Shown here piece after piece: positions 9,886 to 52,058 of a stretch of 64,000 nt of DNA. The notes under the pieces are model-generated. The model saw nothing but the letters and a program-made list of their open reading frames with translations, did no database searches and was not told the DNA's origin. The DNA is from Thioclava sp. ES.031. Its GTDB lineage: Bacteria > Pseudomonadota > Alphaproteobacteria > Rhodobacterales > Rhodobacteraceae. The stretch's first letter is position 1. Each line of letters begins with the position of its first letter. The position numbers and the translations under genes were made by a program. Location: positions 2,413,501 to 2,477,500 of the forward strand of contig NZ_PDJO01000001.1 of NCBI RefSeq assembly GCF_002563775.1, given 5' to 3'.

Positions 9886-10299
9886 ATGAGGCATCGTGCG
9901 TTCCAGAAAGACTATGAGAAGGTATTTTTGATCTTGCGTAATCCTGAATACGACCACTATCGGTCGACGCCGGACGGGTTGATCCCGGGACGGGACATTT
10001 CTGCTTGGCTCTGGTGGGTTCCAGCCATCGCTCTTCTTGTTGCAATCCTGCCCCTGCCGTATGGCTACTACATGCTGCTGCGCTTGGTAGTTTGTGCCGC
10101 AGCAGGCGTCATTTCATGGAAAGAATACTCCCTCAACGGGAAGAGATCGAACAGCTTTTCATGGATATTTGGAGTAATTGCAGTTCTCTTTAATCCGCTC
10201 ATTCCGGTTCACCTTTTCAAGCTGATTTGGGTCGTATTCAACATCATCGCAGCATTGACATTCATTGGTCACTTCCGGCTTCGATTGCGGCAGATTTGA
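9886..10299 (+). CDS. Small membrane protein, DUF6804-like
   Basis: It is 137 residues from ATG 9886 (GGGAG just upstream; an in-frame ATG at 9835 would add 17 residues). There is a soluble N-terminus of ~35 residues, then about four hydrophobic spans: WLWWVPAIALLVAILPL, YYMLLRLVVCAAAGVISW, FSWIFGVIAVLFNPLIPVHL, and LIWVVFNIIAALTFIGHF. The LPYGYYxLLRxVVC and WxFGxIAxLFNPLIPxHL signatures fit the DUF6804 type of small membrane protein. Function unknown. It precedes the GmrSD-like gene by 130 bp, facing the same way. Confidence 0.65.
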   Translation: MRHRAFQKDYEKVFLILRNPEYDHYRSTPDGLIPGRDISAWLWWVPAIALLVAILPLPYGYYMLLRLVVCAAAGVISWKEYSLNGKRSNSFSWIFGVIAVLFNPLIPVHLFKLIWVVFNIIAALTFIGHFRLRLRQI

Positions 10300-10429
10300 T
10301 GTACCAAACCACTATATCCAATGAATATTTCATACCATCAAGGATCCTTATGTTAGGTCAAAACAACACGTCTCGGGCATCTCTCGTCAGGACACAGGGG
10401 CGTGACTTCAACCTTACCGAGGTGTCGAA

Positions 10430-12538
10430 ATGAAAGCGACCGACGCGAACTTTTTGTCCTTCATCAACAACTCAACGCAGTTCGTCATTCCGATCTACCA
10501 GCGAACTTACAGTTGGACAGAGCAGGAATGCAGGCAACTCTGGGACGATGTGCGCCGCGCGGGAAGTAGCGACTATGTTCAAGTTCACTTCCTGGGATCT
10601 GTTGTCTATATTGAGGAAAAGCTCTCGAACAATTCCAGTCGCTCGCCGGATCTCGTGATCGATGGACAACAGCGACTGACGTCCGTTCTATTGTTGCTTT
10701 CGGCTCTTGCACTTGTGATCGGGGATACTGAACCTGTCGACGGTTTTTCAACAAAGAAAATCCGAAATAGATACTTACTCGACCCGGATGAGAATGGAGA
10801 GCGCGCTTTCAAGCTCCTTCTGTCGAAGACTGATCGCACGACACTGAATGCGATTGTTACCGGAGACGATTTGCCTGAGAAGCCCTCGCTACGTGTCGAG
10901 CAGAACTTTGAGCTTTTCCGTCACTGGCTGGAAAGCGAACCTGATGCTGTGGTGGAAATCTGCGCCGGCTTGAACAAGTTGATGATCGTAGACGTTGCCC
11001 TTAGCCGGGAGCACGACAATCCGCAGCTGATCTTCGAAAGTATGAATTCGACAGGAAAGGAGCTGTCTCAGGCGGATTTGATCCGGAACTTCGTGCTGAT
11101 GGGACTGAAGCCTGACTTGCAGACGCGGCTCTATGAGCAATATTGGCGCAAGATGGAGGAGGGCTTTGGGCAGAGCGCCTACGTCGCCCATTTCGATGGT
11201 TTCATGCGTCACTACCTGACTGTCGTGACAGGAAGCATTCCCCGGCAGGGAGACGTTTACACAGCCTATAAGACCTATTCACATCAGCAAGTCGCCAAAG
11301 GCAAAGAGGTTACGGATCTCGTTAGAGAGGTCTGGGAGTTCTCAAAGCGTTATGGGGCTTTGGCATTGGGTCAGGAAAAGAACGTTCCGCTCGCCCAAGC
11401 ATTCAAGGATCTTCGTGAAATGAAGGTCGACGTAGCCTATCCCTTCCTTCTGGAAGTTTACCGCGACTACGACGACGGCCTTGTCACAGCCGACGAGTTT
11501 CTGGAAATCGCCCGGATGGTGGAGGCGTATGTATTTCGGCGCGCGATCTGTGCTGTTCCGACGAATTCGCTTAACAAGACTTTTGCGAATTTTTCGCGCG
11601 AACTCAAAAAGGACTGTTATCTGGAAAGCGTCAAAGCTCACTTCCTGTTGATGCGATCCTATCGGCGTTTTCCGCGGGATGAGGAGTTCATTGCAAGGAT
11701 ACAGGACCGCGATCTCTACAACTTCCGAAACCGCTCATATTGGCTTAGAAAGTTCGAAAACCATGGCCGCAGAGAGCGTGTCTATATCGATGACTACACG
11801 ATTGAGCATATCCTGCCTCAGAACGAAAATCTGTCACAGCAATGGAAAGACGATCTGGGTCAGGATTACAGAGAGGTGCAGGAAAAATGGCTGCACACAA
11901 TCGGAAATCTGACCCTGACAGGATACAACGCCCAGTACAGCGATCGCCCTTTCAAGGAGAAGAGGGACATGGAAGGAGGCTTCAAGGACAGCCCTCTTCG
12001 CGTAAACCAGGGGCTCGGTCAGATCAAGGTCTGGAGCGAAGCAGAGATCAAGAACCGTGCCGACAGAATAGCGCGTCATGCCGCGCGCGTCTGGGAGCTT
12101 CCAGATCTCTCGCAAGAGATCCTAAGCGCTTATCGGACGCCTGACACCGTGGTGAACGGATATTCGATCGATGATCATCCCCACCTGACGGAAGGAAAGA
12201 TGAGCGCGTTGTTCGAAGCCTTCCGAAAAGAAGTTCTCGCGCTCGATGAATGCGTCACCGAACAATTCCTCAAGCTTTATGTTGCCTATAAAGCCGAAAC
12301 GAATTTCGTCGATGTCGTGCCACAGGCAAAAGCACTTCGCCTGTCACTGAACATTGACCCTGGCACGATATCTGATCCCAGGGGCATGGTGGTCGATGTC
12401 ACTGGCGTCGGGCGCTGGGGGAACGGAAACTCGGAAGTGAAACTTAGCAACCCTGAAGATCTGCAATATGTCGTAGGATTGGTAAGGCAGGCCCTCGAGA
12501 CGCAGCTCTCTGGAGAGGAAGTGCTCGCTTACACTTGA
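10430..12538 (+). CDS. GmrSD-like restriction protein (DUF262 + DUF1524)
   Basis: This is a 702-residue single-chain protein of the type IV restriction GmrSD class, predicted to recognise and cut modified phage DNA. The DUF262 (GmrS/ParB-like NTPase) part has FVIPIYQRTYSWTE near residue 20 and VIDGQQRLTS near 75 (DGQQR motif). The DUF1524 (GmrD, His-Me nuclease) part has IEHILPQ near 460 and TIGNLTLTGYN near 490. The last ~130 residues resemble the DUF5655 domain often fused at this end. GAGGTGTCGAA precedes the ATG. It is intact and stands alone between unknown genes, consistent with a defence role in this accessory region. Confidence 0.88.
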   Translation: MKATDANFLSFINNSTQFVIPIYQRTYSWTEQECRQLWDDVRRAGSSDYVQVHFLGSVVYIEEKLSNNSSRSPDLVIDGQQRLTSVLLLLSALALVIGDTEPVDGFSTKKIRNRYLLDPDENGERAFKLLLSKTDRTTLNAIVTGDDLPEKPSLRVEQNFELFRHWLESEPDAVVEICAGLNKLMIVDVALSREHDNPQLIFESMNSTGKELSQADLIRNFVLMGLKPDLQTRLYEQYWRKMEEGFGQSAYVAHFDGFMRHYLTVVTGSIPRQGDVYTAYKTYSHQQVAKGKEVTDLVREVWEFSKRYGALALGQEKNVPLAQAFKDLREMKVDVAYPFLLEVYRDYDDGLVTADEFLEIARMVEAYVFRRAICAVPTNSLNKTFANFSRELKKDCYLESVKAHFLLMRSYRRFPRDEEFIARIQDRDLYNFRNRSYWLRKFENHGRRERVYIDDYTIEHILPQNENLSQQWKDDLGQDYREVQEKWLHTIGNLTLTGYNAQYSDRPFKEKRDMEGGFKDSPLRVNQGLGQIKVWSEAEIKNRADRIARHAARVWELPDLSQEILSAYRTPDTVVNGYSIDDHPHLTEGKMSALFEAFRKEVLALDECVTEQFLKLYVAYKAETNFVDVVPQAKALRLSLNIDPGTISDPRGMVVDVTGVGRWGNGNSEVKLSNPEDLQYVVGLVRQALETQLSGEEVLAYT

Positions 12539-37336: not shown

Positions 37337-38266
37337 TTATGACCCGGGCGAAGTCGTCGCGGCGCGGGCCTGCCTTTGCGCTTGCCTGCGCGCCTTGAAA
37401 GCCGCGACCAGACGCGGGATGCGATGCTCCTTGCCGCGACTCGCGAGATGGTCTTCCATCACCTTGCGATAAAGGTAGATGTCCTTGCGGCCTCGGGTCG
37501 ACTGATAATACCAGGCCTCGCTCAGTTCGCCCGTGATCGCGCGCGCAAGGACCGCCTTCAGAAGCTCCATCCGGCGCAACACCAGCGCCGTCTTGTGCCC
37601 CTGCCCGAACGCCTTGAGCAGCGTGACGTTATCGCGCGGCAGACGCCCGAACTGTCGCATATCCTCTTGCAGGAAGGGATCGCAGATCACCCAGACCTTG
37701 GCCGCCTTCCCGCTATGTTCGGCCGCATCCGAGCGCGGCAGCGACCAGTCCTGATCGCGCCCACGGGCGAAGCGCCGCTCCCACGGGACAAGCGCCCGCG
37801 CGAGCGTCGTCTGCGGGCTGAAGGCCACCACCTCGCAGCCCGGCGCGAGATCGGCGAAGGCCAGTGCGCCGAAACCGCCCATCGAGGTGCCCGCCATCAC
37901 GACGCGCGCGTATCCTTCGAAAAAGCCCTGATCGCGCAAAGCCTCCATCCGGGCGATCAGCCGCGCGTCGCGAAACCAAGTCGGGCCCTGCGCGACCACG
38001 CCCAGATGGCTCCAGCCATTGTCGCGGATGAATTTCTCGGCCCAGGGCCGGATGTCATAGCCCGGATAGCCCGCATCCGAGAGGTTGTCGAACGTCACGA
38101 CCAGCGTGGCCGGGTCGCGCGCGACATGGATCAGCGCGTGCTCCCCCAGCTTTTCATAGAACCCGTCGCGGGGACCTGCCGGGAAAATCTCGCGATACCA
38201 ATCGGGCAGCTTCTCCTCGAGCCCGGACTCATTACCTGCGGCGTCGTCTTCGAAATCATCGGCCAT
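37337..38266 (-). CDS. Alpha/beta-hydrolase-like protein
   Basis: It is 309 residues from ATG 38266 (no strong ribosome site; an in-frame GTG at 38398 would add 44 residues). A serine-hydrolase elbow GTSMGGFGA (~125) and a His candidate in GQGHKTALVL (~235) are present; LVVTFDNLSDAG and LGVVAQGPTWFRD resemble the phosphopantetheine- or exopolysaccharide-linked hydrolases of Rhodobacterales. The N-terminus is acidic and the C-terminus basic (FKARRQAQRQARAA). Substrate unknown. It is convergent with pcaQ. Confidence 0.65.
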   Translation of the reverse strand: MADDFEDDAAGNESGLEEKLPDWYREIFPAGPRDGFYEKLGEHALIHVARDPATLVVTFDNLSDAGYPGYDIRPWAEKFIRDNGWSHLGVVAQGPTWFRDARLIARMEALRDQGFFEGYARVVMAGTSMGGFGALAFADLAPGCEVVAFSPQTTLARALVPWERRFARGRDQDWSLPRSDAAEHSGKAAKVWVICDPFLQEDMRQFGRLPRDNVTLLKAFGQGHKTALVLRRMELLKAVLARAITGELSEAWYYQSTRGRKDIYLYRKVMEDHLASRGKEHRIPRLVAAFKARRQAQRQARAATTSPGS

Positions 38267-38597
38267 CGGGATCGCTTTTTGCTGCTCGGGATCGGTTGAG
38301 GTCTGACATTTTTTCTTGCGCCGATCAATTACATACGGATGTTTTGATGCTATCGTTACGGCGAGAACGACATAAGAAAAACCAGAGAGATCGGGCACAT
38401 TTATGGCAACAGTGAAGCGGAGCGCAGAACGTGGCCTGAGCCGCAGGCTGCGGAGTGGGTCGAACCCGTCATATTGTGAACGCTATTTCGTGCATTCTCG
38501 CCCCCGTTGGACGCTCGACACCTCCACCGGACATACCGGACACCGCCCTCCCGCAGCCTGACCGCCGCGAAAGACCTTCCCAAACAGGAGCCTTCCC

Positions 38598-39443
38598 TTG
38601 TCCCAACTGCCGACGATCGCGACCCTGTGGATCGGAGACCGCCTGTCCTGGCTCGAACAGCTGAGCCTGAAATCCTTCGTCGATGCGGGACATGACACGC
38701 TGCTCTATTGCTACAACCTGATCCCGAACGCCCCGCCCGGGGTGACGCTGCGCGATGCGCGCGACATCTTTCCGGGCGACGAGATCATCCGCCACAAGCG
38801 CACCGGAAGCCCCGCGATCCATGCCGATCTGTGGCGCCTGCATCTGATGGAGAAGACCGATTACATCTGGGTCGATGCCGATGTGCTTTGCGTGAAGCCC
38901 TTTGATTTCCAAGACGATTACGTCTTCGGGCTGGAGAAGCCGCACCTGATCTGCAACGCGGTGATGCGCCTGCCCGCGGAGTCGAAGACGCTGCGCGGGC
39001 TGCTGGATTTCGTGGCCGATCCCTATGCGATCGGGCCGTGGCTGAAGGAAGAGCAGCAAGCGGAATTGCGCGCGGCCCGCGATCGCGGCGCGCCGGTGCA
39101 TTTCTCCGAGCAGGAATGGGGGCTGACCGGCCCTGCCGCGTTGAGCCACTTCCTGCGCGAGACCGGCGAATGGGACCATGCGCTCTCGCAACAGGCCTTC
39201 TACCCGATCTCGTTCAAGGACCGGAACAAGATGATCATGTCGCGCTTCGACGTCGAGAAGGATTTCCTGACAGACGACACCTATGCGGTGCATATGTGGG
39301 CGCGCCGGATGAAACCCCGTCTGGAAGAGGCCGAGAACAACCGCCCCCGGCGCGGCAGCTACATGCACAAGGCGCTGCTCAAACACGGCATCACCCCGTC
39401 CGAGGCCCCGATCCCGCCCAAGGTGAAACCCGTCGACGCCTGA
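38598..39443 (+). CDS. Glycosyltransferase-like protein (DXD type)
   Basis: It is 281 residues starting at TTG 38598 with GGAG 8 nt upstream. TDYIWVDADVLCVKPF (~90-105) holds the DXD-like metal/sugar-nucleotide motif of GT-A fold (Gly_transf_sug/GT32-like) enzymes. SPAIHADLWRLHLM just before matches the conserved segment that precedes DXD in such proteins. No membrane span. A role in surface polysaccharide is plausible but not shown. There is a 60-bp gap to the convergent gene. Confidence 0.7.
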   Translation: MSQLPTIATLWIGDRLSWLEQLSLKSFVDAGHDTLLYCYNLIPNAPPGVTLRDARDIFPGDEIIRHKRTGSPAIHADLWRLHLMEKTDYIWVDADVLCVKPFDFQDDYVFGLEKPHLICNAVMRLPAESKTLRGLLDFVADPYAIGPWLKEEQQAELRAARDRGAPVHFSEQEWGLTGPAALSHFLRETGEWDHALSQQAFYPISFKDRNKMIMSRFDVEKDFLTDDTYAVHMWARRMKPRLEEAENNRPRRGSYMHKALLKHGITPSEAPIPPKVKPVDA

Positions 39444-39502
39444 AGCGGGCGGCGGTCCTCGCCGGTCAGGCCGAATGCGGAGACACGAAGCTTAATCGAG
39501 CG

Positions 39503-40351
39503 TTAGTCGCGCAGCACACCGGCGGCGACCAGCGCGCGGCGGTCCGGGCGCCAGATATCGCGGTGTGGCGTCGCGAAGGCGCGCGTGGCGAAGCTGGGCG
39601 TCACGCCCCGATCACGCAGAAAGGCGCGGTCGATCGCTTCCTCTTTCGCGACGTCGATCGGCAGCGGATAGGCTTCCAGGCTATAGCCGTGAAAGCCCAG
39701 CGTGCCCTCAGGGCCAAGATCGCGATGCGCGCCCGCCATGAAGATCAGCGTGCAGGCGGAATAGCAGCGCTTCGTCACCTGCGTGTTCAGCCCCCGCGCC
39801 AGCACGCGTTGCGCCAGCGCCCGCGCGGCGAAGACCTGCCCGCCGGCACTGTCGAGCTCGACCGCCGAGACGCCTGTCGCCGGGGTTGCCTCGAACCGCG
39901 CGAGAAGATCGTAGCCGATATCGCCGGTCAGATAAGCAACGCCGTTGCGCACCTCCAGCGGCTGCGGCCCGGCATAGGCGGCCGGCACCAAGGCCGCTGT
40001 CTGTCGCGCGGCCTGATCGAGCGCATGGGTCACCGTCACCACCGCGACCGCCACCACCGCCACGCGTCCGGCGAGCAGCACATGGCCCCGCGCCTGCGCG
40101 TCGATCCAATGCGACAGGCTGCGCCACGCGCCCACCAGCTGCCACAGCGCCAGCGTCATATCTGCGAGGAAGAGCAACGCGAAAAGCGGCATCGAGAGCG
40201 GCGACGACATGGCTTGCCACAGCTCGGCGACCGCCAACCGCCCACCGATCAGCACCACGACGAGCGCGATCCAAGGCGGGCAGTCGCCCTGCCAGTAGCT
40301 GCCGAGCCCCCAGTGCGAGGCAGGCTGAAATATCCGGGTGGCTCGGGCCAT
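39503..40351 (-). CDS. Membrane protein with ClpP/crotonase-like periplasmic domain (COG3904-like)
   Basis: It is 282 residues. Three N-terminal hydrophobic segments (IALVVVLIGGRLAVAEL, PLFALLFLADMTLALWQLV, LLAGRVAVVAVAVVTVTHAL) are followed by a domain with VELDSAGGQVFAARALAQRVLARGLNTQV and CYSACTLIFMAGAHRDLGPEGTLGFH. These are typical of ClpP-fold proteins in which Ser of YSACT is the nucleophile position. Proteolytic activity is unproven. Confidence 0.72.
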   Translation of the reverse strand: MARATRIFQPASHWGLGSYWQGDCPPWIALVVVLIGGRLAVAELWQAMSSPLSMPLFALLFLADMTLALWQLVGAWRSLSHWIDAQARGHVLLAGRVAVVAVAVVTVTHALDQAARQTAALVPAAYAGPQPLEVRNGVAYLTGDIGYDLLARFEATPATGVSAVELDSAGGQVFAARALAQRVLARGLNTQVTKRCYSACTLIFMAGAHRDLGPEGTLGFHGYSLEAYPLPIDVAKEEAIDRAFLRDRGVTPSFATRAFATPHRDIWRPDRRALVAAGVLRD

Positions 40352-40430
40352 TTACGCCGTCCTTTCGAGCACCATCGAGCCTCAGTCTAGCATAGCTGGC
40401 CCCGAAAATGGGAATTTGCCGAAAGTGACG

Positions 40431-40447
40431 GCACTGTGAGACAGTGC
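40431..40447. promoter_or_regulatory. Inverted repeat upstream of the hydrogenase gene
   Basis: GCACTGT-GAG-ACAGTGC, perfect 7-bp arms, 68 bp before the hydrogenase ATG. Candidate operator; no FNR-type site (TTGAT-N4-ATCAA) was seen in the 163-bp leader. Confidence 0.3.
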
Positions 40448-40514
40448 TGAAGACGCAGGCCTTCTGCCACGGCGAGGGCCTCTGCTATACTTAGGAGACG
40501 GGAGGTCCCTTCGC

Positions 40515-42587
40515 ATGATCACGCTTACGATCAACGGGCGGCACGTCGAAGTCGACGAGGGCACCAGCTTGCTGGATGCGGCGAAGCAGGCTGGCATCCA
40601 TATCCCGACGCTGTGCTATTACCCCGGCCTGCCCGCCCATGCCGTGTGCCGCATGTGCCTCGTGGAGATCGAGGGCACCCCCCATCCGCAACCGGCCTGC
40701 CGCACCTTGGCGAAAGAGGGCGATGTCGTCGCGACGGACACCGAGGCGCTGGCGGCCTTTCGGAAAGCCGATGCGCAATGGCTGCTCGCGCGTCACCCCA
40801 ATGACTGCATGCGCTGCGAGGTGAACGGGGCGTGCCAGCTCCAGCGTCTCGTCCATGAGAACCAATGGGAGGAGCGCTGGCCGAAGATGCCCGCCGGGGC
40901 GCCTGCCGCCTCGGAAGAGCTCGCAACCGATCACACCTCCCCCAGCATCTGGCGCGATCTGTCGAAATGTATCGAATGCGGGTTGTGTGCGGAGGTCTGC
41001 GGCGACGCCGTCCAGAACCAGAATGTCATCGGGTTCGCCAATCGCGGATTTGACCGCCGCCCGGTCACGGTCTTCGACGTGCCACTGTCGCAGACCAATT
41101 GCATCTCCTGCGGCCAGTGCACGCTCGTCTGCCCGGTCGGCGCGCTGATCGAGGCGCCGCATTGGCACGCGGTGCTGCAAACGCTCGACGCTCATCGGCG
41201 CGTCTCCGTGGTTCAGGTGGCCCCGGCGACCCGCATCGCCATCAGCGAGGAATTCGGGCTGGAGCCGGGCACCGTCAGCACGGGGCGCTTGATCAACGCG
41301 CTGCGGCTTTTGGGGTTCGATTACGTGTTCGACACCAATTTCGCCGCCGATCTGACGATCATGGAGGAAGGCACCGAGCTGCTGTCGCGGCTCGAGGCCG
41401 GGACGGAGCTGCCGCTGTTCACCTCCTGCTGTCCGGGTTGGGTAAATTGGGTCGAGTTGAACCGCCCCGATCTTCTGCCGCATCTGAGCACGACCAAATC
41501 CCCCCAGCAGATGCATGGCGCGATTGCGAAACGGGGCCGCTTTGCACGGTCTCTGGGGCCCGATTTCGCGGACGGCAAAGCCGAGCCCTATGTCGTGAGC
41601 GTGATGCCCTGCACCGCCAAGAAGGACGAGGCCCAGCGCCCCGGCGTCTCCGGCGATGTGGATCATGTGCTCACCACCCGCGAACTGGCGCGGATGATCC
41701 GGTCGCGCGGCATCCCGTTCGGGGCGCTCTCCGAAGACGGGCAATTCGACAGCCCGCTGGGCGAGAGCACCGGGGCCGCCCAGATATTCGGCGCCTCCGG
41801 CGGGGTCATGGAGGCGATGGTCCGCACGGCTGCGCATTTCAAAGGGGTCGAGCACGATCTGCCGCTGGAATGGGAGGCGCTGCGCGGCGTCCGTGAGGGC
41901 GTGAAAACCGCGACCATTCCCGGCGTCGGCACCGTGGCCGTGTGCAACGGGATCGCGTCGGCCCAGCGCATGCTGGAAGACGAGGACTGGCGCGACGATT
42001 ATGTCGCGATCGAAGTCATGGCCTGCGTCGGCGGCTGCCTCGGCGGCGGCGGTGAGCCGAAATCCATGGACCCGCATATTCTGCAAAAACGCGCCAAGGC
42101 GATCTACAGCGTCGACGCGAAGGCACCGCGCCGCCGCTCTTATGAGAATGCGGATGTGCAGGCGCTTTATGCCTCGGAACTGGGTGCGCCGAATTCCCCG
42201 ACCGCGCACCGTCTGCTTCACACCCATTACGCCGACAGACATTCCAAGCGCTCGCTGCTGATGCGCTTTCTGGATTGCGTGGACCGGCGCGACGGTGCGG
42301 CGGCCGCAAAGCTGTTTCATCCCGACGGGGTTTGGTCGACCGCCTCTCCCTTCGGCGTGCTGACTGGCGCGAACGAGATCGCGGGGCTCATCAACGCTAA
42401 GCTGCCGCCGAACCTGCGCGGCGCGAAATATGCGCGTCACCAGATGGAGCGCGCCTCGGATATCGACGACCTCACGGTCCTCGCGCCCGACGGGAGCCGC
42501 AGCCGCTTCGATCTGGAGCTGAGTACCGTGGAAGCTGACGGCTATTCTCAGACGGTGATCCAGACCCTCACACGCAACGTCCTTTGA
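40515..42587 (+). CDS. [FeFe]-hydrogenase (HydA-like) with extra C-terminal NTF2/SnoaL-like domain
   Basis: It is 690 residues; GGAGGT lies 8 nt before the ATG. Domain order: 2Fe-2S ferredoxin (Cys34, 45, 48, 62); His94-Cys98-Cys101-Cys107 4Fe-4S site; two 4Fe-4S motifs (CIECGLCAEVC and CISCGQCTLVCP); H-cluster domain with L1 TSCCPGW (~303), L2 MPCTAKKDE (~364) and L3 MACVGGCLGGGGEP (Cys504, Cys508); then the small-subunit-like segment ending NSPTAHRLLHTHY. All H-cluster cysteines, the proton-path Cys and the Glu of IMEEGTELL are kept. Residues ~580-690 (FLDCVDRRDGAAAAKLFHPDGVW...) look like a SnoaL/NTF2-like fold not found in ordinary M3 hydrogenases. No hydEFG maturases are nearby. Reaction: reversible H2 oxidation, or H2/redox sensing. 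Confidence 0.9.
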   Translation: MITLTINGRHVEVDEGTSLLDAAKQAGIHIPTLCYYPGLPAHAVCRMCLVEIEGTPHPQPACRTLAKEGDVVATDTEALAAFRKADAQWLLARHPNDCMRCEVNGACQLQRLVHENQWEERWPKMPAGAPAASEELATDHTSPSIWRDLSKCIECGLCAEVCGDAVQNQNVIGFANRGFDRRPVTVFDVPLSQTNCISCGQCTLVCPVGALIEAPHWHAVLQTLDAHRRVSVVQVAPATRIAISEEFGLEPGTVSTGRLINALRLLGFDYVFDTNFAADLTIMEEGTELLSRLEAGTELPLFTSCCPGWVNWVELNRPDLLPHLSTTKSPQQMHGAIAKRGRFARSLGPDFADGKAEPYVVSVMPCTAKKDEAQRPGVSGDVDHVLTTRELARMIRSRGIPFGALSEDGQFDSPLGESTGAAQIFGASGGVMEAMVRTAAHFKGVEHDLPLEWEALRGVREGVKTATIPGVGTVAVCNGIASAQRMLEDEDWRDDYVAIEVMACVGGCLGGGGEPKSMDPHILQKRAKAIYSVDAKAPRRRSYENADVQALYASELGAPNSPTAHRLLHTHYADRHSKRSLLMRFLDCVDRRDGAAAAKLFHPDGVWSTASPFGVLTGANEIAGLINAKLPPNLRGAKYARHQMERASDIDDLTVLAPDGSRSRFDLELSTVEADGYSQTVIQTLTRNVL

Positions 42588-42777
42588 CACTCTGCTGCGC
42601 AGGCTTTCCGCGCAGCGGGCGAAGACAGGTCACAAATTCATCATTCCGACGATCACAAGCGCGTTTCTTTTTCCTTTCTTGTTCTAGAGCAAAGCCATAG
42701 CGGGCGACGGGGTTCATGCTCCGGCACGTAGTAAACCTGCCCTGCCCCGCGGGAAGAGACACCGGAACGGAAGACCT

Positions 42778-44028
42778 ATGCCAAGCCAGAGCCGCGACGA
42801 AATCGAACAAATGCTGTCCACTGCGAAGAGTGGACGCCCTTGGCGACTCTGGGCTTTCGGCGCGGGTGCCGTGGTGATCGCGATCGGCGCGTGGCTCTGG
42901 CTTGCGCCCTCCGGCGACACCACCGGCACGAGCTATGTGACGCAAGCCGTCACGCGCGGCGATCTGACCGTCACGGTCACCGCGACCGGCACGGTGCAGC
43001 CCACGACGGAGGTTGAGGTATCCTCGGAGCTGTCGGGCACGCTCGATAGCATCGATGTCGATTACAACGACGAGGTCAAAGTGGGTCAGGTGCTCGCGCG
43101 GCTCGACGACACGAAATTCAAGGCGCAGGTCGCCAATGCCGAAGCCGCGCTTGCCGCCGCCAAGGCGCAGCTCGCGCAGGCCGAGGCCACCCAGAAAGAA
43201 GCGACGGCGCTTTATGAGACACAAGCCGAACTGGACCGGCGCGGCGTCTCGACCCATAGCACCTTCGTCACCTATATCGCGCAGCGCGATCGCGCCGTGG
43301 CCGCCGTTCAGGCCGCGAAAGCGTCGCTGACGCTGGCCGAGGCGAACCTTGCATTGGAGAAGGACGATCTGGAGAAATCGGTGATCCGCTCCCCGATCAA
43401 TGGCGTCGTTCTGGACCGCAATGTCTCGGCCGGTCAGATCGTGGCCGCCTCGCTGTCCGCGCCCACCCTGTTCACGCTGGCCGAGGACCTGCGCCGGATG
43501 CAGTTGCTGGTCGATATCGACGAGGCGGATATCGGTCAGGTCGCGGTCGGCAATGACGCGACATTCACCGTCGACGCCTATTCCGGTCGCTCCTTCCCGG
43601 CGACGATCACGCAGGTGCGCTACGCCCCCGAGACCACCGACGATGTCGTGACCTACAAGGGCGTGCTGGCGGTCGACAACTCCGATCTTCTCCTGCGCCC
43701 CGGCATGACCGCGACGGCGACGATCACCGTGGACGAGGCCAAGGACGCGCTGCTGATCCCGAATGCGGCGCTGCGCTACGCGCCCCCGCAAGAGGTCGAA
43801 GATGCGGGCAATGGCGCGAGCGGGCTCATCGGGCTCGTGATACCGAGCCGACCGAGTTCGGAGAGCGGCACCGCGAGCGGCAAATCCGTCTGGGTTCTTC
43901 GCGACGGCACCCCCGTCGAAGTGGCGGTCACGCCGGGGGCGACGAACGGCAAGTTCACGATCGTCACCGCGGGCGATCTGGCCGTCGGCGATCAGGTCAT
44001 CACCGATCAGCGGGATATGTCGCGATGA
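42778..44028 (+). CDS. Efflux periplasmic adaptor (MacA/HlyD-like)
   Basis: It is 416 residues. One N-terminal membrane anchor (LWAFGAGAVVIAIGAWLWLA, ~22-42), a lipoyl/barrel-sandwich half (GTVQPTTEVEVSSELSGTLDSIDVDYNDEVKVGQVLARLD), a coiled-coil hairpin (NAEAALAAAKAQLAQAEATQKEATALYETQ), the second lipoyl half (VIRSPINGVVLDRNVSAGQIV), and beta-barrel and membrane-proximal domains. It links the MacB-like pump to the outer membrane. Its stop overlaps the next ATG by 4 nt. Confidence 0.9.
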   Translation: MPSQSRDEIEQMLSTAKSGRPWRLWAFGAGAVVIAIGAWLWLAPSGDTTGTSYVTQAVTRGDLTVTVTATGTVQPTTEVEVSSELSGTLDSIDVDYNDEVKVGQVLARLDDTKFKAQVANAEAALAAAKAQLAQAEATQKEATALYETQAELDRRGVSTHSTFVTYIAQRDRAVAAVQAAKASLTLAEANLALEKDDLEKSVIRSPINGVVLDRNVSAGQIVAASLSAPTLFTLAEDLRRMQLLVDIDEADIGQVAVGNDATFTVDAYSGRSFPATITQVRYAPETTDDVVTYKGVLAVDNSDLLLRPGMTATATITVDEAKDALLIPNAALRYAPPQEVEDAGNGASGLIGLVIPSRPSSESGTASGKSVWVLRDGTPVEVAVTPGATNGKFTIVTAGDLAVGDQVITDQRDMSR

Positions 44029-44729
44029 GTGAGCCGCTTCTCGAGCTGCGCGGGATCGAGCGCCACTATGGCCACGACGAAACCCTCGTGCGCGCCCTCG
44101 ATGGCGTCGATCTTCGCGTCGAACCGGGGGAATTCCTCGCGATCATGGGGCCCTCGGGGTCGGGAAAATCGACCGCGATGAACATCATCGGCTGTCTCGA
44201 CCGGCCGACCGCGGGCAACTACCTGTTCAACGGTGTCGAGGTCGCGACCCTGAACCGCGATCAACGCGCGCTTCTTCGCCGGCACTACCTCGGCTTCGTC
44301 TTTCAGGGCTACAACCTTTTGCCCCGCACCACCGCGCTGGAAAATGTCGAACTTCCCCTGATCTACAAGGGGATGCGCAAGGCCGAGCGTGTGGCGCGGG
44401 CCCGTCAGGCGCTGGCGCGGGTCGGGCTTGAGGGGCGCGAGGATCACACGCCGTCGCAGCTCTCGGGCGGTCAGCAGCAACGCGTCGCCATCGCGCGGGC
44501 GCTTGCGGGCGAGCCGATGGTGATGCTCGCCGACGAGCCCACCGGCAACCTCGACACCAAACGCAGCGTCGAGATCATGAACCTGATGCAGGACCTCAAC
44601 CGCGAGTCCGGGCTGACCATCGTGATGGTCACACATGAAGAGGACATGGCCGCCTATGCCTCCCGTCTGGTCGTCTTCACCGACGGTCGCGTCGTGCGCG
44701 ACGAAAAGATGCACGAAGGAGCCCTATGA
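44025..44729 (+). CDS. MacB-type ABC transporter ATPase
   Basis: It is 234 residues, LolD/MacB class. Walker A GPSGSGKST, Q-loop FQGYNLLP, signature LSGGQQQRVAIARAL, Walker B VMLADEPTGNLD, H-loop VTHEEDMA. Overlaps the permease gene by 4 nt. Unlike E. coli MacB, ATPase and permease are separate. Confidence 0.92.
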   Translation: MSEPLLELRGIERHYGHDETLVRALDGVDLRVEPGEFLAIMGPSGSGKSTAMNIIGCLDRPTAGNYLFNGVEVATLNRDQRALLRRHYLGFVFQGYNLLPRTTALENVELPLIYKGMRKAERVARARQALARVGLEGREDHTPSQLSGGQQQRVAIARALAGEPMVMLADEPTGNLDTKRSVEIMNLMQDLNRESGLTIVMVTHEEDMAAYASRLVVFTDGRVVRDEKMHEGAL

Positions 44730-45934
44730 TGCTCTGGGAAACCATCCGCCTCGCACTGACCGCGATCATCCGCAACGCGCTTCGGTCCTTTCTCACCGTG
44801 CTGGGCGTGGTGATCGGGGTCGCCGCCGTCATCGCGATGGTGACCGTCGGGCAAGGCTCCTCCGAGCAGGTCTCGGCCAATGTGGAATCGCTCGGGACGA
44901 ATGTGCTGGTCCTGCGCTCGGGAGCGCGGATGATGGGGCCCGGATCGCGCGATACCGCGCCGCCCTTCAAGCTCTCGGATGCAGAAGCGCTGGAGGACCT
45001 CAGCAGCCTCTCGGCCGTCGCGCCTGTCGTCTCGACCGGAGCGACCGTGGTCTTCGGCAACAACAATCGCACGACATCGATCACCGGCACGACGTCGCCC
45101 TATCTCGAGATCGGAGGCTGGACGATCGCGCTCGGGCGCAGCTTCACCCCGGCGGAGGATCGCAGCGGCGCCAATCTTTGCATCATCGGCGAGACCGTGC
45201 GGACAACCCTGTTCGGCGCGACCGATCCGACCGGCGAGAAAATCCGCATCAAGTCGATCTCCTGCGAGGTGATCGGCGTGCTGAAATCAAAGGGCGCCGG
45301 GTCCTTCGGGCAGGATCAGGACGACCTCGTGCTGATGCCGGTCCGAACGGTGCAAAGGCGGCTGATGGGCAGTCAGGACGTCTCTTCGATCTCGCTTCAG
45401 GTGGCCCGGACGGCCTCCGTGGAGCGGGCGACCTCCGACATCGAGGCTCTGATGCGCGAGCGCCGCCGCATCGCCATCGGCGAAGACGACGATTTCTCGG
45501 TCTTCGACATGGCCGAACTGAGTTCGATGCTCAATTCGGTCAACTCGGTTCTTACCGGCCTGCTCTCCTCCGTCGCGGCGGTCAGCCTGCTCGTGGGCGG
45601 GATCGGCATCATGAACATCATGCTGGTCTCGGTGACCGAGCGCACCCGCGAGATCGGCATCCGCCTCTCGGTCGGCGCGCAGGCCCATCAGGTCCTGATG
45701 CAGTTTCTGGTCGAGGCGGTGGTGCTGTCGGTTCTGGGCGGGATCATCGGGATCCTCTTCGGCCTCGGCCTCGCCTATGTCGCGGCGCAGATCATGGCGA
45801 TCCCCTTCTCGCCCAGCCTGGACGTCATCGCGCTCGCCTTCGGCTTCTCCGCCGTGGTGGGGATGGTCTTCGGCTACTTCCCTGCACGACGGGCGGCCCG
45901 GCTCGATCCGATTGACGCCCTGCATTATCAGTAG
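44726..45934 (+). CDS. MacB-type ABC transporter permease
   Basis: It is 402 residues. First membrane span (~20-43: FLTVLGVVIGVAAVIAMVTVG), a large MacB_PCD periplasmic domain (~45-275), then an FtsX-like domain with three C-terminal spans (LLSSVAAVSLLVGGIGIMNIMLVSVTERTREIGIR; VVLSVLGGIIGILFGLGLAYV; VIALAFGFSAVVGMVFGYFPARRAARLDPIDAL). With the two genes before it forms a complete inner-membrane export system; substrate unknown (macrolide, peptide or lipid). Confidence 0.92.
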   Translation: MMLWETIRLALTAIIRNALRSFLTVLGVVIGVAAVIAMVTVGQGSSEQVSANVESLGTNVLVLRSGARMMGPGSRDTAPPFKLSDAEALEDLSSLSAVAPVVSTGATVVFGNNNRTTSITGTTSPYLEIGGWTIALGRSFTPAEDRSGANLCIIGETVRTTLFGATDPTGEKIRIKSISCEVIGVLKSKGAGSFGQDQDDLVLMPVRTVQRRLMGSQDVSSISLQVARTASVERATSDIEALMRERRRIAIGEDDDFSVFDMAELSSMLNSVNSVLTGLLSSVAAVSLLVGGIGIMNIMLVSVTERTREIGIRLSVGAQAHQVLMQFLVEAVVLSVLGGIIGILFGLGLAYVAAQIMAIPFSPSLDVIALAFGFSAVVGMVFGYFPARRAARLDPIDALHYQ

Positions 45935-47646: not shown

Positions 47647-48906
<1,260 letters not shown>

Positions 48907-48910
48907 GCTC

Positions 48911-49981
48911 ATGGCTGCAAATCCTCAACCGCTCCTTCAGTTCTGGACCGATGACGAACCGCTGGAATGCGTCAACTTCCTGCCCGAGGCCCCGAATACG
49001 GCGAGCTTCACCTTTCGCCCGCCCTCGGGGGCGCTGTTCCACTTCAATGCCGGGCAGTTCGTGACGCTGGAATTGCCGGTGGCGGGCGGCCCGCTGCACC
49101 GGACCTTCACGATCTCCTCCTCGCCGTCGCGCCCCACCTCGCTCACCGTCACGGTGAAGGCGCAGCCGGACTCGCTCGGCACGCGCTGGATGCTCGACAA
49201 TCTGCGCCCCGGCATGCGGATCAAGGCGTTGGGACCGGCGGGGATGTTCTCGAACGTCGTCCATCCGGCGTCGAAATACCTGTTCATCTCGGCAGGCTCC
49301 GGGATCACCCCGATGATGTCGATGACGACGCAACTCTATGATGCGGGCAGCGACCCGGACATCGTTTTCATCAACTGCGCGCGCCGTCCATCGGAGATCA
49401 TCTTCCGCGAGCGGCTGGAGCACATGGCCTCGCGCCTGCCGGGGATCGCGCTGACCTGGGTGGTCGAGGAACAGGATCGCTACGCGCCCTGGACCGGGAT
49501 CAAGGGGCAACTGAACCAGCTCATCCTCGGCCTCGCAGCCCCCGATTATCTCGAGCGCGAGGTGTTCTGCTGCGGCCCCGAGCCTTTCATGCGCGCGGTG
49601 CGCGAGGCGCTGACCGGTCTGGGGTTCGACATGGACCACTACCATCAGGAGAGCTTCAACGCCCCGATCGCCGATCGCCCCGTCGAGCCCGAAGACGACG
49701 TGACCCCCGACGAGGATGCCGCCGTCGAGGTCACTTTCGCCAAATCCGGCAAGACCGCAAAGATCAAGGAGACCGAAACCCTGCTGGCCGCCGCGAAAGC
49801 TGCGGGCGTGCCGCTGCCGTCGGGTTGCACCTTCGGGGTCTGCGGAACCTGCAAGATCAAGACCAAGGTCGGTCAGGTCCACATGGTCCACAACGGCGGC
49901 ATCACCGATGACGAGATCGAGGAAGGCTACGTTCTCGCCTGCTGCTCGAACCCGATCGGCGACGTCTCGATCGACGCCTGA
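48911..49981 (+). CDS. gbcB: Betaine demethylase reductase (GbcB-like)
   Basis: It is 356 residues. FAD/NAD-binding ferredoxin reductase core: HRTFTISSSPS (flavin), KYLFISAGSGITPMMSM (pyridine nucleotide), FCCGPEPFMRAVREAL. The C-terminal plant-type 2Fe-2S domain is CTFGVCGTCKIKTKVG ... CC. It passes electrons from NAD(P)H to the Rieske oxygenase. There is a 4-bp gap to the oxygenase gene. Confidence 0.9.
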   Translation: MAANPQPLLQFWTDDEPLECVNFLPEAPNTASFTFRPPSGALFHFNAGQFVTLELPVAGGPLHRTFTISSSPSRPTSLTVTVKAQPDSLGTRWMLDNLRPGMRIKALGPAGMFSNVVHPASKYLFISAGSGITPMMSMTTQLYDAGSDPDIVFINCARRPSEIIFRERLEHMASRLPGIALTWVVEEQDRYAPWTGIKGQLNQLILGLAAPDYLEREVFCCGPEPFMRAVREALTGLGFDMDHYHQESFNAPIADRPVEPEDDVTPDEDAAVEVTFAKSGKTAKIKETETLLAAAKAAGVPLPSGCTFGVCGTCKIKTKVGQVHMVHNGGITDDEIEEGYVLACCSNPIGDVSIDA

Positions 49982-50021
49982 CGCCCCCTACCCTCAAGAC
50001 CCGACCTCAAGGAGTCCGCCC

Positions 50022-52058
50022 ATGTCCAGTGATCCGCTTCTGCAGCCCTATCAGCTCAAGCATCTGACGCTGAAGAACCGCCTGATGATCACGAGCCACG
50101 AGCCCGCCTACCCCGAGGACGGGATGCCCAAGGATCGCTACCGGGCCTATCATGTCGAGCGGGCGCGCGCGGGCGTGGCGCTGACGATGACGGCGGGCTC
50201 CGCCTCCGTCGCCCGCGACAGCCCGCCGGTCTTCAACAACATCCTCGCTTGGAAAGACGAGGTTGTCGGCTGGATGAAAGAGCTGACGGATGCCTGCCAC
50301 GAGCACGACTGCGCCGTGATGATCCAGCTGACCCATCTCGGGCGCCGCACCCGCTGGGACAAGGCCGACTGGCTTCCGGTCGTCTCGTCGAGCCACGAAC
50401 GCGAGGCCTCGCACAAGGCCTTCCCGAAGAAGGCCGAGGATTGGGACATCGCGCGCATCATCGAGGACTACGCCGACGCCGCCGAACGCATGAAAGCGGC
50501 AGGGCTCGACGGGATCGAGCTGCAAGCCTATGGCCACCTGATGGATCAGTTCTGGTCGCCTCTGACCAACGATCTGGACGGCCCCTATGGCGGCAGCTTG
50601 GAGAACCGTCTGCGCTTCACCTTCGACACGCTCAAAGCGATCCGCGCGCGTGTGGGCGAGGAGTTCATCGTGGGCGTGCGCTACACCGGCGACGAGGACC
50701 TGCCCGGCGGCATCACCCGCGAAGAGGGGCTGGAAATCTCGCAGCGTCTGAAAGACAGCGGCATGGTCGATTTCCTCAACGTGGTGAAGGGCCATATCGA
50801 CACCGATGCGGGCCTGACCGATGTGATCCCGGTGCAGGGCATGCGCAGCGCGCCGCATCTGGATTTCGCCGGAGAGATCCGCGCAGCCACCAAGTTCCCG
50901 ACCTTCCACGCCGCCAAGATTCAGGATGTCGCCACCGCGCGGCACGCGATCGCGGAGGGCAAGCTCGACATGGTCGGCATGACCCGCGCCCATATGGCCG
51001 ACCCGCATATCGTCGCCAAGATCATGCGCGGCGAAGAAGAGCGTATCCGCCCCTGCGTCGGCGCGAATTACTGCCTCGACCGGATTTATCAGGGCGGCAT
51101 GGCGCTGTGCCTGCACAACCCCTCGACCGGGCGCGAGTTGGAAGTCCCCCATGAGATCGCGAAGGCCGATGCGTCGCGCCGCGTGGTCATCGTCGGGGCC
51201 GGTCCGGCGGGGCTCGAGGCCGCCCGGGTGGCCGCCGAACGCGGTCATGAGGTTATCGTGCATGAGGCCGCCAACGATCCCGGCGGACAGGTGCGCCTGA
51301 CCGCGCAATCCAAGCGCCGCCACGAGATGATCCAGCTGATCCAATGGCGTTTCGCGGAATGCGAGCGTCTCGGCGTGAGCTTCCGGTTCAACAGCTATGC
51401 CGACGCGGACACCATCCGCGCAGAACAGCCCGATGTCGTCGTGATCGCGACCGGCGGGCTGCCGCATACCGAGGTGCTGGACGCAGGCGACGATCTCGTC
51501 GTCTCGTCCTGGGACATCCTCTCGGGAGACGCCCGCCCCGGCAGCAACGTGCTGATCTATGATGACGCCGGAGACTACGCCGCCCTGCAGGCCGCCGAGA
51601 CCCTCGCCGCCAGCGGTGCCAAGGTCGAAATCATGACGCGCGACCGCAATTTCTCCTCCGAGGTCATGGCGATGTCCCTGACCCCGTCTTTGCGCGAATT
51701 GCAGGCCCGCGACGCGACCTTCACCGTGCTTTGGAAACTGACCGGCGTGGCGAAGGCCGGAAACGGCTTGGTCGCGCGCGTCGGCAGCGATTATGGCGCT
51801 TTCACCCGCGAGCGGCAGGTCGATCAGGTCGTCGTCAATCACGGCACCCGCCCGCTCGACGACATCTATTTCGATCTGCGCGAAGACGCGAGCAATCAGG
51901 GCGAAGTCGATTACGAAGCCCTGATCGCCGGCCAGCCGCAATCGGTCACGCGAAATCCGAACGGCGCCTATCAGCTCTTCCGCATCGGCGACGCCGTCGC
52001 CGCGCGCAACACCCATGCAGCAATCTACGATGCCCTGCGGCTGATGCGCACGGTCTGA
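50022..52058 (+). CDS. Flavin-dependent N-methyl amine demethylase (DgcA/HpbA-like)
   Basis: It is 678 residues; AAGGAG precedes the ATG. N-terminal old-yellow-enzyme barrel (KNRLMITSHEP, ELQAYGHLMDQFWSPLTNDLDGPYGGSLENRLRF). The 4Fe-4S cysteines are partly visible (CVGANYCLDRIYQGGMALCLHNP). The C-terminal FAD/NAD domain starts at RVVIVGAGPAGLEAARVAAERGHEV. This trimethylamine-dehydrogenase-like architecture is shared by DgcA (dimethylglycine) and HpbA (N-methylproline). It completes the pathway begun by the Rieske pair. Confidence 0.86.
   Translation: MSSDPLLQPYQLKHLTLKNRLMITSHEPAYPEDGMPKDRYRAYHVERARAGVALTMTAGSASVARDSPPVFNNILAWKDEVVGWMKELTDACHEHDCAVMIQLTHLGRRTRWDKADWLPVVSSSHEREASHKAFPKKAEDWDIARIIEDYADAAERMKAAGLDGIELQAYGHLMDQFWSPLTNDLDGPYGGSLENRLRFTFDTLKAIRARVGEEFIVGVRYTGDEDLPGGITREEGLEISQRLKDSGMVDFLNVVKGHIDTDAGLTDVIPVQGMRSAPHLDFAGEIRAATKFPTFHAAKIQDVATARHAIAEGKLDMVGMTRAHMADPHIVAKIMRGEEERIRPCVGANYCLDRIYQGGMALCLHNPSTGRELEVPHEIAKADASRRVVIVGAGPAGLEAARVAAERGHEVIVHEAANDPGGQVRLTAQSKRRHEMIQLIQWRFAECERLGVSFRFNSYADADTIRAEQPDVVVIATGGLPHTEVLDAGDDLVVSSWDILSGDARPGSNVLIYDDAGDYAALQAAETLAASGAKVEIMTRDRNFSSEVMAMSLTPSLRELQARDATFTVLWKLTGVAKAGNGLVARVGSDYGAFTRERQVDQVVVNHGTRPLDDIYFDLREDASNQGEVDYEALIAGQPQSVTRNPNGAYQLFRIGDAVAARNTHAAIYDALRLMRTV

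Follow-up and report, generated by a model that had tools for sequence, protein, structure and literature searches.

The window analysed is a 64,000 nt stretch of the genome of Thioclava sp. ES.031. At nt 40515–42587, on the forward (+) strand, it carries a single gene for a 690-aa protein in which an [FeFe]-hydrogenase-like sequence is fused to a C-terminal NTF2 domain (ORF, Pfam and NCBIfam evidence). Pfam families follow one another along the protein in the order Fer2_4, NADH-G type 4Fe-4S, Fer4-type, Fe_hyd_lg_C, Fe_hyd_SSU and SnoaL_4. Residues 1–120 (nt 40515–40874; Pfam Fer2_4 and NADH-G_4Fe-4S_3) comprise an N-terminal [2Fe-2S] domain (C34, C45, C48, C62) and a His-Cys3 [4Fe-4S] domain (H94, C98, C101, C107). 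These are followed, all on the + strand, by a 2x[4Fe-4S] ferredoxin domain (residues 144–215, nt 40944–41159; Pfam Fer4 families), the H-domain (residues 225–513, nt 41187–42053; PF02906, 271 bits, with CpI alignment and conservation), the small-subunit (SSU) domain (residues 514–575, nt 42054–42239; PF02256, 68 bits) and the NTF2/SnoaL-like domain (residues 576–690, nt 42240–42584; PF13577, AF2, Foldseek/VIA and conservation). A Pfam scan of the protein detected no signalling domain, whether PAS, kinase, DNA-binding or of another kind. Over the Fe-S region the full-length AF2 model is poor, with pLDDT below 50 at residues 35–44, 92–107, 121–189, 202–214 and 511–515.

Alignment with CpI ([FeFe]-hydrogenase I of Clostridium pasteurianum; 4xdc) places the H-domain motifs at L1, TSCCPGW (C305, C306), L2, MPCTAKK (M364, C366, K369), and L3, MACVGGCLGGGGEP (M502, C504, C508). 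The equivalents of the proton relay are C305 (C299 of CpI), E285, E288, R292 and S325. The alignment itself was computed, and the roles of the H-cluster ligands and relay residues are taken to be as in CpI. The [4Fe-4S]H cysteines by which group A is recognised (C306, C366, C504, C508) are kept in all 55 rows of the family alignment, as are the 16 ligands of the M3 layout ([2Fe-2S], His-[4Fe-4S] and 2x[4Fe-4S]), including the eight cysteines of the 2x[4Fe-4S] domain. The complete H-cluster motifs and M3-type Fe-S domains proposed in a preliminary description of this DNA were thus borne out by the CpI alignment, the Pfam matches and the conserved ligands. The protein scores 438.4 bits against TIGR02512 (group A [FeFe]-hydrogenase), above the curated cut-off of 405.95; its best NCBIfam score is to NF040763 (group A6), at 656.9 bits, yet this lies under the cut-off of 765. 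By sequence, it is securely placed in the [FeFe]-hydrogenase superfamily.

CpI shares the M3 domain order, the H-cluster ligands and the relay residues with the Thioclava protein at about 35% identity. It lacks the NTF2 domain, since the CpI match stops at residue 573, and its L3 motif reads GGCVNGGGQP where the 690-aa protein has GGCLGGGGEP; the two also differ in that the host of the latter is without HydE, HydF and HydG. The nearest solved relative is 8a6t (494 bits), a HydA of the bifurcating/NADH-dependent HydABC enzymes (8a6t, 7q4v; group A6). Unlike these HydA proteins, the Thioclava protein falls under the A6 cut-off, has no adjoining HydB or HydC, is unaccompanied by maturases and carries an extra C-terminal domain.

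The C-terminal domain passes the Pfam SnoaL_4 model (PF13577; 28.0 bits, cut-off 24), and both the AF2 model and a Foldseek/VIA comparison show it to take a separate NTF2 fold, as had been suspected. Over 55 rows, 14 of the 111 positions between residues 580 and 690 are invariant, including D590, W607 and H642. When residues 576–690 were used as the sole query, 315 protein clusters were recovered at E ≤0.001, and all of the best 120 carry a hydrogenase domain. Among the 50 matches listed, NTF2/SnoaL-like proteins such as Sthe_2403 (5tgn), ketosteroid isomerase and SgcJ are 7–26% identical to the domain, and on this comparison no enzyme function can be transferred from SnoaL/KSI-type proteins. 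The NTF2 fold often serves ligand binding or oligomerisation.

Within the window, the gene has an unassigned reading frame of 282 aa on one side and a HlyD/MacB-type exporter on the other. No genes for HydB or HydC were found near it, either among the window ORFs or in a Pfam scan of ten neighbours, in agreement with the earlier observation that no partner subunit is close by. Directly downstream (nt 42778–45934, + strand), a HlyD-type membrane-fusion gene, an ABC ATPase and a MacB/FtsX permease make up a MacAB-like exporter. It is inconsistently linked to the gene, even in Thioclava, and the exporter homologue of T. pacifica (79%) is about 17 kb away. Further along (nt 47677–52058, + strand) lie genes for a Rieske oxygenase and an FAD/NAD/2Fe-2S reductase (Pfam), and a flavin oxidoreductase-like frame, a group that we take to resemble glycine-betaine or stachydrine demethylation genes. 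No neighbour is conserved across the loci, and an operon partner or a linked new maturase was rejected as no neighbour family extends beyond 12 of 67 loci. The gene appears to be self-contained. A 699-aa open frame on the complementary strand (nt 40491–42590) is antisense to the whole gene; about 60 of the 67 loci have such antisense frames, which seem to be a side effect of the GC-richness of the coding sequence.

The upstream region (nt 40486–40505, + strand) contains a putative promoter −10 element (TATACT, nt 40486–40491) and a putative Shine-Dalgarno sequence (GGGAGG, nt 40500–40505). TATACT is also present upstream of the gene in three Thioclava rows (L010, L064 and L011). A perfect 7-bp inverted repeat, GCACTGT-GAG-ACAGTGC, occurs at nt 40431–40447; the other Thioclava rows compared do not conserve it, so it may be there by chance. 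FNR-type regulation was considered and rejected: palindromes with at most two mismatches were found in the 300 bp upstream of the gene in 17/64 loci (27%), whereas random windows taken from the same loci had them in 17.6%, and this weak excess was not counted as evidence because the random windows include coding DNA. No upstream word or motif shared among the loci exceeded three sets of random windows, and no Rfam RNA element reached the gathering score in nt 38000–44800.

A search with the full-length protein returned 7980 relatives out of 7999 scored candidates, and among the best 120 of them query coverage was 99–100% in 117 and 91–93% in three. The family, as delimited here from the best 80 matching stretches (77 loci) of a longer list, comprises at least 66 loci (L010–L075) in GTDB-species genomes, at 65–98% identity. 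Five of these are cut by contig ends (L057, L061, L062, L069, L071); the matches of L062 (residues 1–549) and L057 (1–598) stop short of the extra domain or barely within it, and identities of 76–78% place both in the family. Outside the 66 are nine non-fused loci (L076–L080, L083–L086) and two damaged copies (L081, L082). Among the loci listed, the next relatives after the family are 38–41% identical, with matches ending at residues 575–581, and the family itself spans alpha-, beta-, gamma- and zeta-proteobacteria. Host genera include Jannaschia, Hyphomonas, Brevundimonas, Thiomicrorhabdus, Hydrogenovibrio, Gallionella, Nitrosomonas, Janthinobacterium, Rhodoferax, Paraburkholderia and Mariprofundus, many of which we take to be aerobic or microaerophilic. 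Several members are named '[FeFe] hydrogenase, group A' by NCBI. The gene was present in three of 398 genomes sampled across the Pseudomonadota, including that of Thioclava sp. ES.031, and in 7/16 Thioclava genomes. The fused form was found in none of 72,556 plasmid records, just 15 of which hold relatives, at 35–46%. Of the two damaged copies, that of Jannaschia seohaensis (L081, nt 10001–11193) is a second copy with a broken frame and a large internal deletion, an intact gene (L012) being present on another contig. The other, in Aquabacterium sp. CECT 9606 (L082, nt 10001–11365), is a shortened second copy that keeps its frame open despite internal deletions; it lies about 17 kb away from L052, which is intact, and reflects either decay or an assembly artefact.

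In a tree of 71 rows, the 62 family rows form one clade with support of 100/100, on a stem that is long (2.7 changes per site when the tree is drawn with a midpoint root); the outgroup rows are long, and the tree carries a warning of long branches meeting. The protein thus belongs to a separate clade of M3 proteins that have the [FeFe]-hydrogenase fold and an NTF2-like domain. The fusion seems to be ancient and fixed, and the gene is patchily distributed. Across the Pseudomonadota the fusion is the standard form of the clade, and it is not peculiar to Thioclava sp. ES.031. The preliminary description, which was right about the motifs, the domain layout, the separate C-terminal domain, the Rhodobacteraceae-type host and the lack of nearby partners and maturases, had presented the C-terminal fold as one not seen on hydrogenases; here it falls short, as the same fusion is already common in databases, a condition that it had itself named as refuting.

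Conservation is pronounced around the active site. C305, M364, K369, F425, V431, M502, E285, E288, R292 and P330 are invariant in 55/55 family rows; the count is 54 for S325 and also for Q331, 51 for F302 and 45 for G426, which is replaced by Ala in the other 10. Residue A238, present in all 55 rows, stands where CpI has Ser (position 232). Two family residues close after the C508 ligand set it apart from non-fused proteins: G510, found in 13/13 family rows against N in 19/21 non-fused rows, and E514, found in 13/13 against Q in 19/21. The non-fused comparison set is itself peculiar at position 306, with Ser in 17/21 rows (TSCSPGW) where CpI has the cluster ligand C300; HydA1 of A. woodii (7q4v) also carries TSCSPGW. 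Across seven pairs of family genes, dN/dS was 0.065–0.192 for the whole gene and 0.037–0.152 for the H-domain. The active-site cavity and proton relay look to be under selection. A relic is therefore disfavoured, and two readings remain: the cavity holds another centre or substrate, or there is an unrecognised route to the H-cluster.

On the textbook view, [FeFe]-hydrogenases stay inert unless HydE, HydF and HydG are present. Extending the earlier remark that no hydEFG genes lie nearby, a genome-wide search of the Thioclava sp. ES.031 assembly (4.02 Mb, completeness 100; a single contig, from which plasmids of the strain may be absent) gave no match to HydG or HydE at E 0.001 and only nine sub-threshold matches to HydF, the best at 69.8 bits against a cut-off of 325.55. 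HydG was found in 0/66 family genomes, each counted once, compared with 5/10 non-fused controls (Fisher p 1.4e-5). The 66 consist of the Thioclava genome itself and 44 others, both searched at E 0.001, and 21 further loci searched at E 1e-20; by search set the counts were 0/1, 0/44 and 0/30 family entries, with nine entries that at least in part repeat genomes left out of the total (L089=L048, L092=L064, L095=L011, L096=L067; L022 twice) and L055 outside the search. The other two maturases were searched for in part of the family: HydF (E 1e-30) was found in 0/45 family genomes against 4/5 non-fused controls (Fisher p 2.2e-5), and HydE (E 1e-20) in 0/49 family entries, which include at least two repeated genomes, against 5/6 controls (Fisher p 1.7e-6). 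The controls without HydG were G045 and G483 (0.6–0.7 Mb), G048 (which has HydE and HydF), G484 and G486. The best internal control for maturase absence is G339, a member of the Pseudomonadota whose non-fused protein is 49% identical over residues 192–516 and which carries HydG about 1.2 kb and HydE about 3.2 kb from it on the same contig. The co-presence of HydE, HydF and HydG, by which a functional [FeFe]-hydrogenase is recognised, was thus seen in none of the family genomes searched, so that 'hydrogenase' is unsafe as a statement of function.

The Hyp system was considered as a general source of Fe(CN)2CO and set aside, being conceivable only in the 9/49 family entries with hypD; the gene is absent from the other 40 (the 49 include at least one repeated genome). 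Since the Thioclava sp. ES.031 genome is one of the nine, such a source remains conceivable in this strain. In T. chilensis DSM 12352 (L070, the same as G022), no match to HydG, HydF, HydE or HypD was found.

Members of this family have been encountered before. The available text of PMC4744846 (Hansen and Perner 2016) describes putative [FeFe]-hydrogenases of group A1 in three species, T. chilensis, T. kuenenii and T. pelophila, and names Roseibacterium elongatum and Wenzhouxiangella marina as the nearest annotated relatives. These Thiomicrospira/Hydrogenovibrio proteins belong to the same family, that of T. chilensis (L070) being 71% identical over residues 1–690, and the R. elongatum relative named in that text corresponds to P0083 among the family matches. 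According to the same text, the three species consumed no H2 in micro-oxic or air-plus-H2 incubations, a test of uptake and not of evolution; it makes no mention of an NTF2 domain or of maturases for these proteins. Maturase-lacking [FeFe]-hydrogenases of Rhodospirillum rubrum, likened to the Thioclava protein by description only, are considered probably inactive or differently employed in the accessible part of PMC4967309, and that of PMC6431628 reports FeFe-hydrogenases and HydEFG to be mainly absent from alphaproteobacteria with A1-type oxidases. An [FeFe]-hydrogenase-rubrerythrin chimera from Clostridium perfringens, described in the accessible portion of PMC11926857, is likewise a natural [FeFe]-hydrogenase with an added functional domain, although domain and host differ. 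The terms 'maturase' and 'HydE' do not occur in PMC8924675, nor does NTF2 in the accessible part of PMC13397568. A search of titles and abstract openings, mostly outside the subscription literature, found no paper describing the fusion or maturase-free [FeFe]-hydrogenases in aerobes.

We lean, with modest confidence, towards a repurposed hydrogenase scaffold: a stand-alone, cytosolic multi-cluster iron-sulfur redox protein, and not a classical hydrogenase. The N-terminal [2Fe-2S] and His-[4Fe-4S] clusters would take up electrons, and the 2x[4Fe-4S] wire would conduct them to the [4Fe-4S]H cluster, for use in the active-site cavity, which is preserved. As HydEFG is missing from the hosts, and mostly also hypD, the marker of the other known CO/CN pathway, the cavity probably senses or acts on another small molecule, using the retained proton relay and either the [4Fe-4S]H cluster by itself or some simpler iron centre; the NTF2 domain would probably provide a ligand pocket or a dimer interface. 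Repurposing is favoured by the absence of the maturases and hypD, the contrast with G339, the aerobic host genera, the lack of H2 uptake, G510/E514 and the long stem. It sits awkwardly with the retention of residues that, by comparison with CpI, serve the 2Fe subcluster, which is odd if that subcluster is absent. Also to be set against it are hypD in the Thioclava genome itself, an H2 test confined to uptake, the occurrence of HydG in just 5/10 non-fused controls, and the fact that no substrate, partner or regulator was found. Furthermore, orphan [FeFe]-hydrogenases of some protists have been reported to produce H2 without maturases.

That the protein is a genuine H2-converting [FeFe]-hydrogenase, which in aerobic proteobacteria obtains its H-cluster by a HydEFG-independent route, with an NTF2 domain that may aid insertion or protection, is possible but doubtful. 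The near-invariance of the cavity and proton relay over 55 rows points that way, as do the retention of both L1 cysteines, the low H-domain dN/dS in the seven pairs and a TIGR02512 score over the cut-off; yet no family genome searched has HydE, HydF or HydG above cut-off, hypD is missing from 40/49 entries, no conserved neighbour offers itself as a new maturase (the largest neighbour family covers 12/67 loci) and T. chilensis, going by the available text of PMC4744846, did not take up H2. A more specific proposal is that aerobic proteobacteria have a third route, independent of HydEFG and Hyp, by which an active diiron H-cluster, or an equivalent free of CO/CN, is made in an unaltered cavity, the NTF2 domain being a built-in assembly or protection module; we hold this to be rather unlikely. 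It is improbable that the protein is a sensor of H2, O2 or redox state, in which the clusters would read redox state and the NTF2 domain would be an output or ligand module: neither a signalling domain (PAS, kinase, DNA-binding or other) nor a conserved target gene nearby was found, even if the single-gene layout without an operon partner, the frequent ligand-binding or oligomerising role of NTF2 folds and the slight excess of FNR-like palindromes upstream would fit. The patchy occurrence of the gene (3/398 Pseudomonadota, 7/16 Thioclava genomes) and the damaged second copies in Jannaschia and Aquabacterium might suggest a decaying relic of horizontal transfer, retained by chance without function. 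With all ligands intact in 55/55 rows and a clade that covers several proteobacterial classes, this is very improbable, and purifying selection on both the whole gene and the H-domain already largely refutes it.

The [FeFe]-hydrogenase-like gene is itself real, and the point of interest is the absence of maturases from the family genomes searched, on account of which its function as a hydrogenase is not secure. In this marine bacterium and its scattered proteobacterial relatives, the protein either does another job or gets its metal centre in an unrecognised way. In the first case the fold would have been recruited to a different chemistry, and in the second H-clusters could be built along an unrecognised route. 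The finding is also relevant to the hydrogenases of R. rubrum and some protists, which are puzzling in that they lack maturases, and cultured hosts in which both readings could be tested exist in Thioclava, Janthinobacterium, Paraburkholderia and Thiomicrorhabdus. Annotation pipelines that call the family genes 'hydrogenase' may meanwhile overcount H2 metabolism in aerobic proteobacteria.
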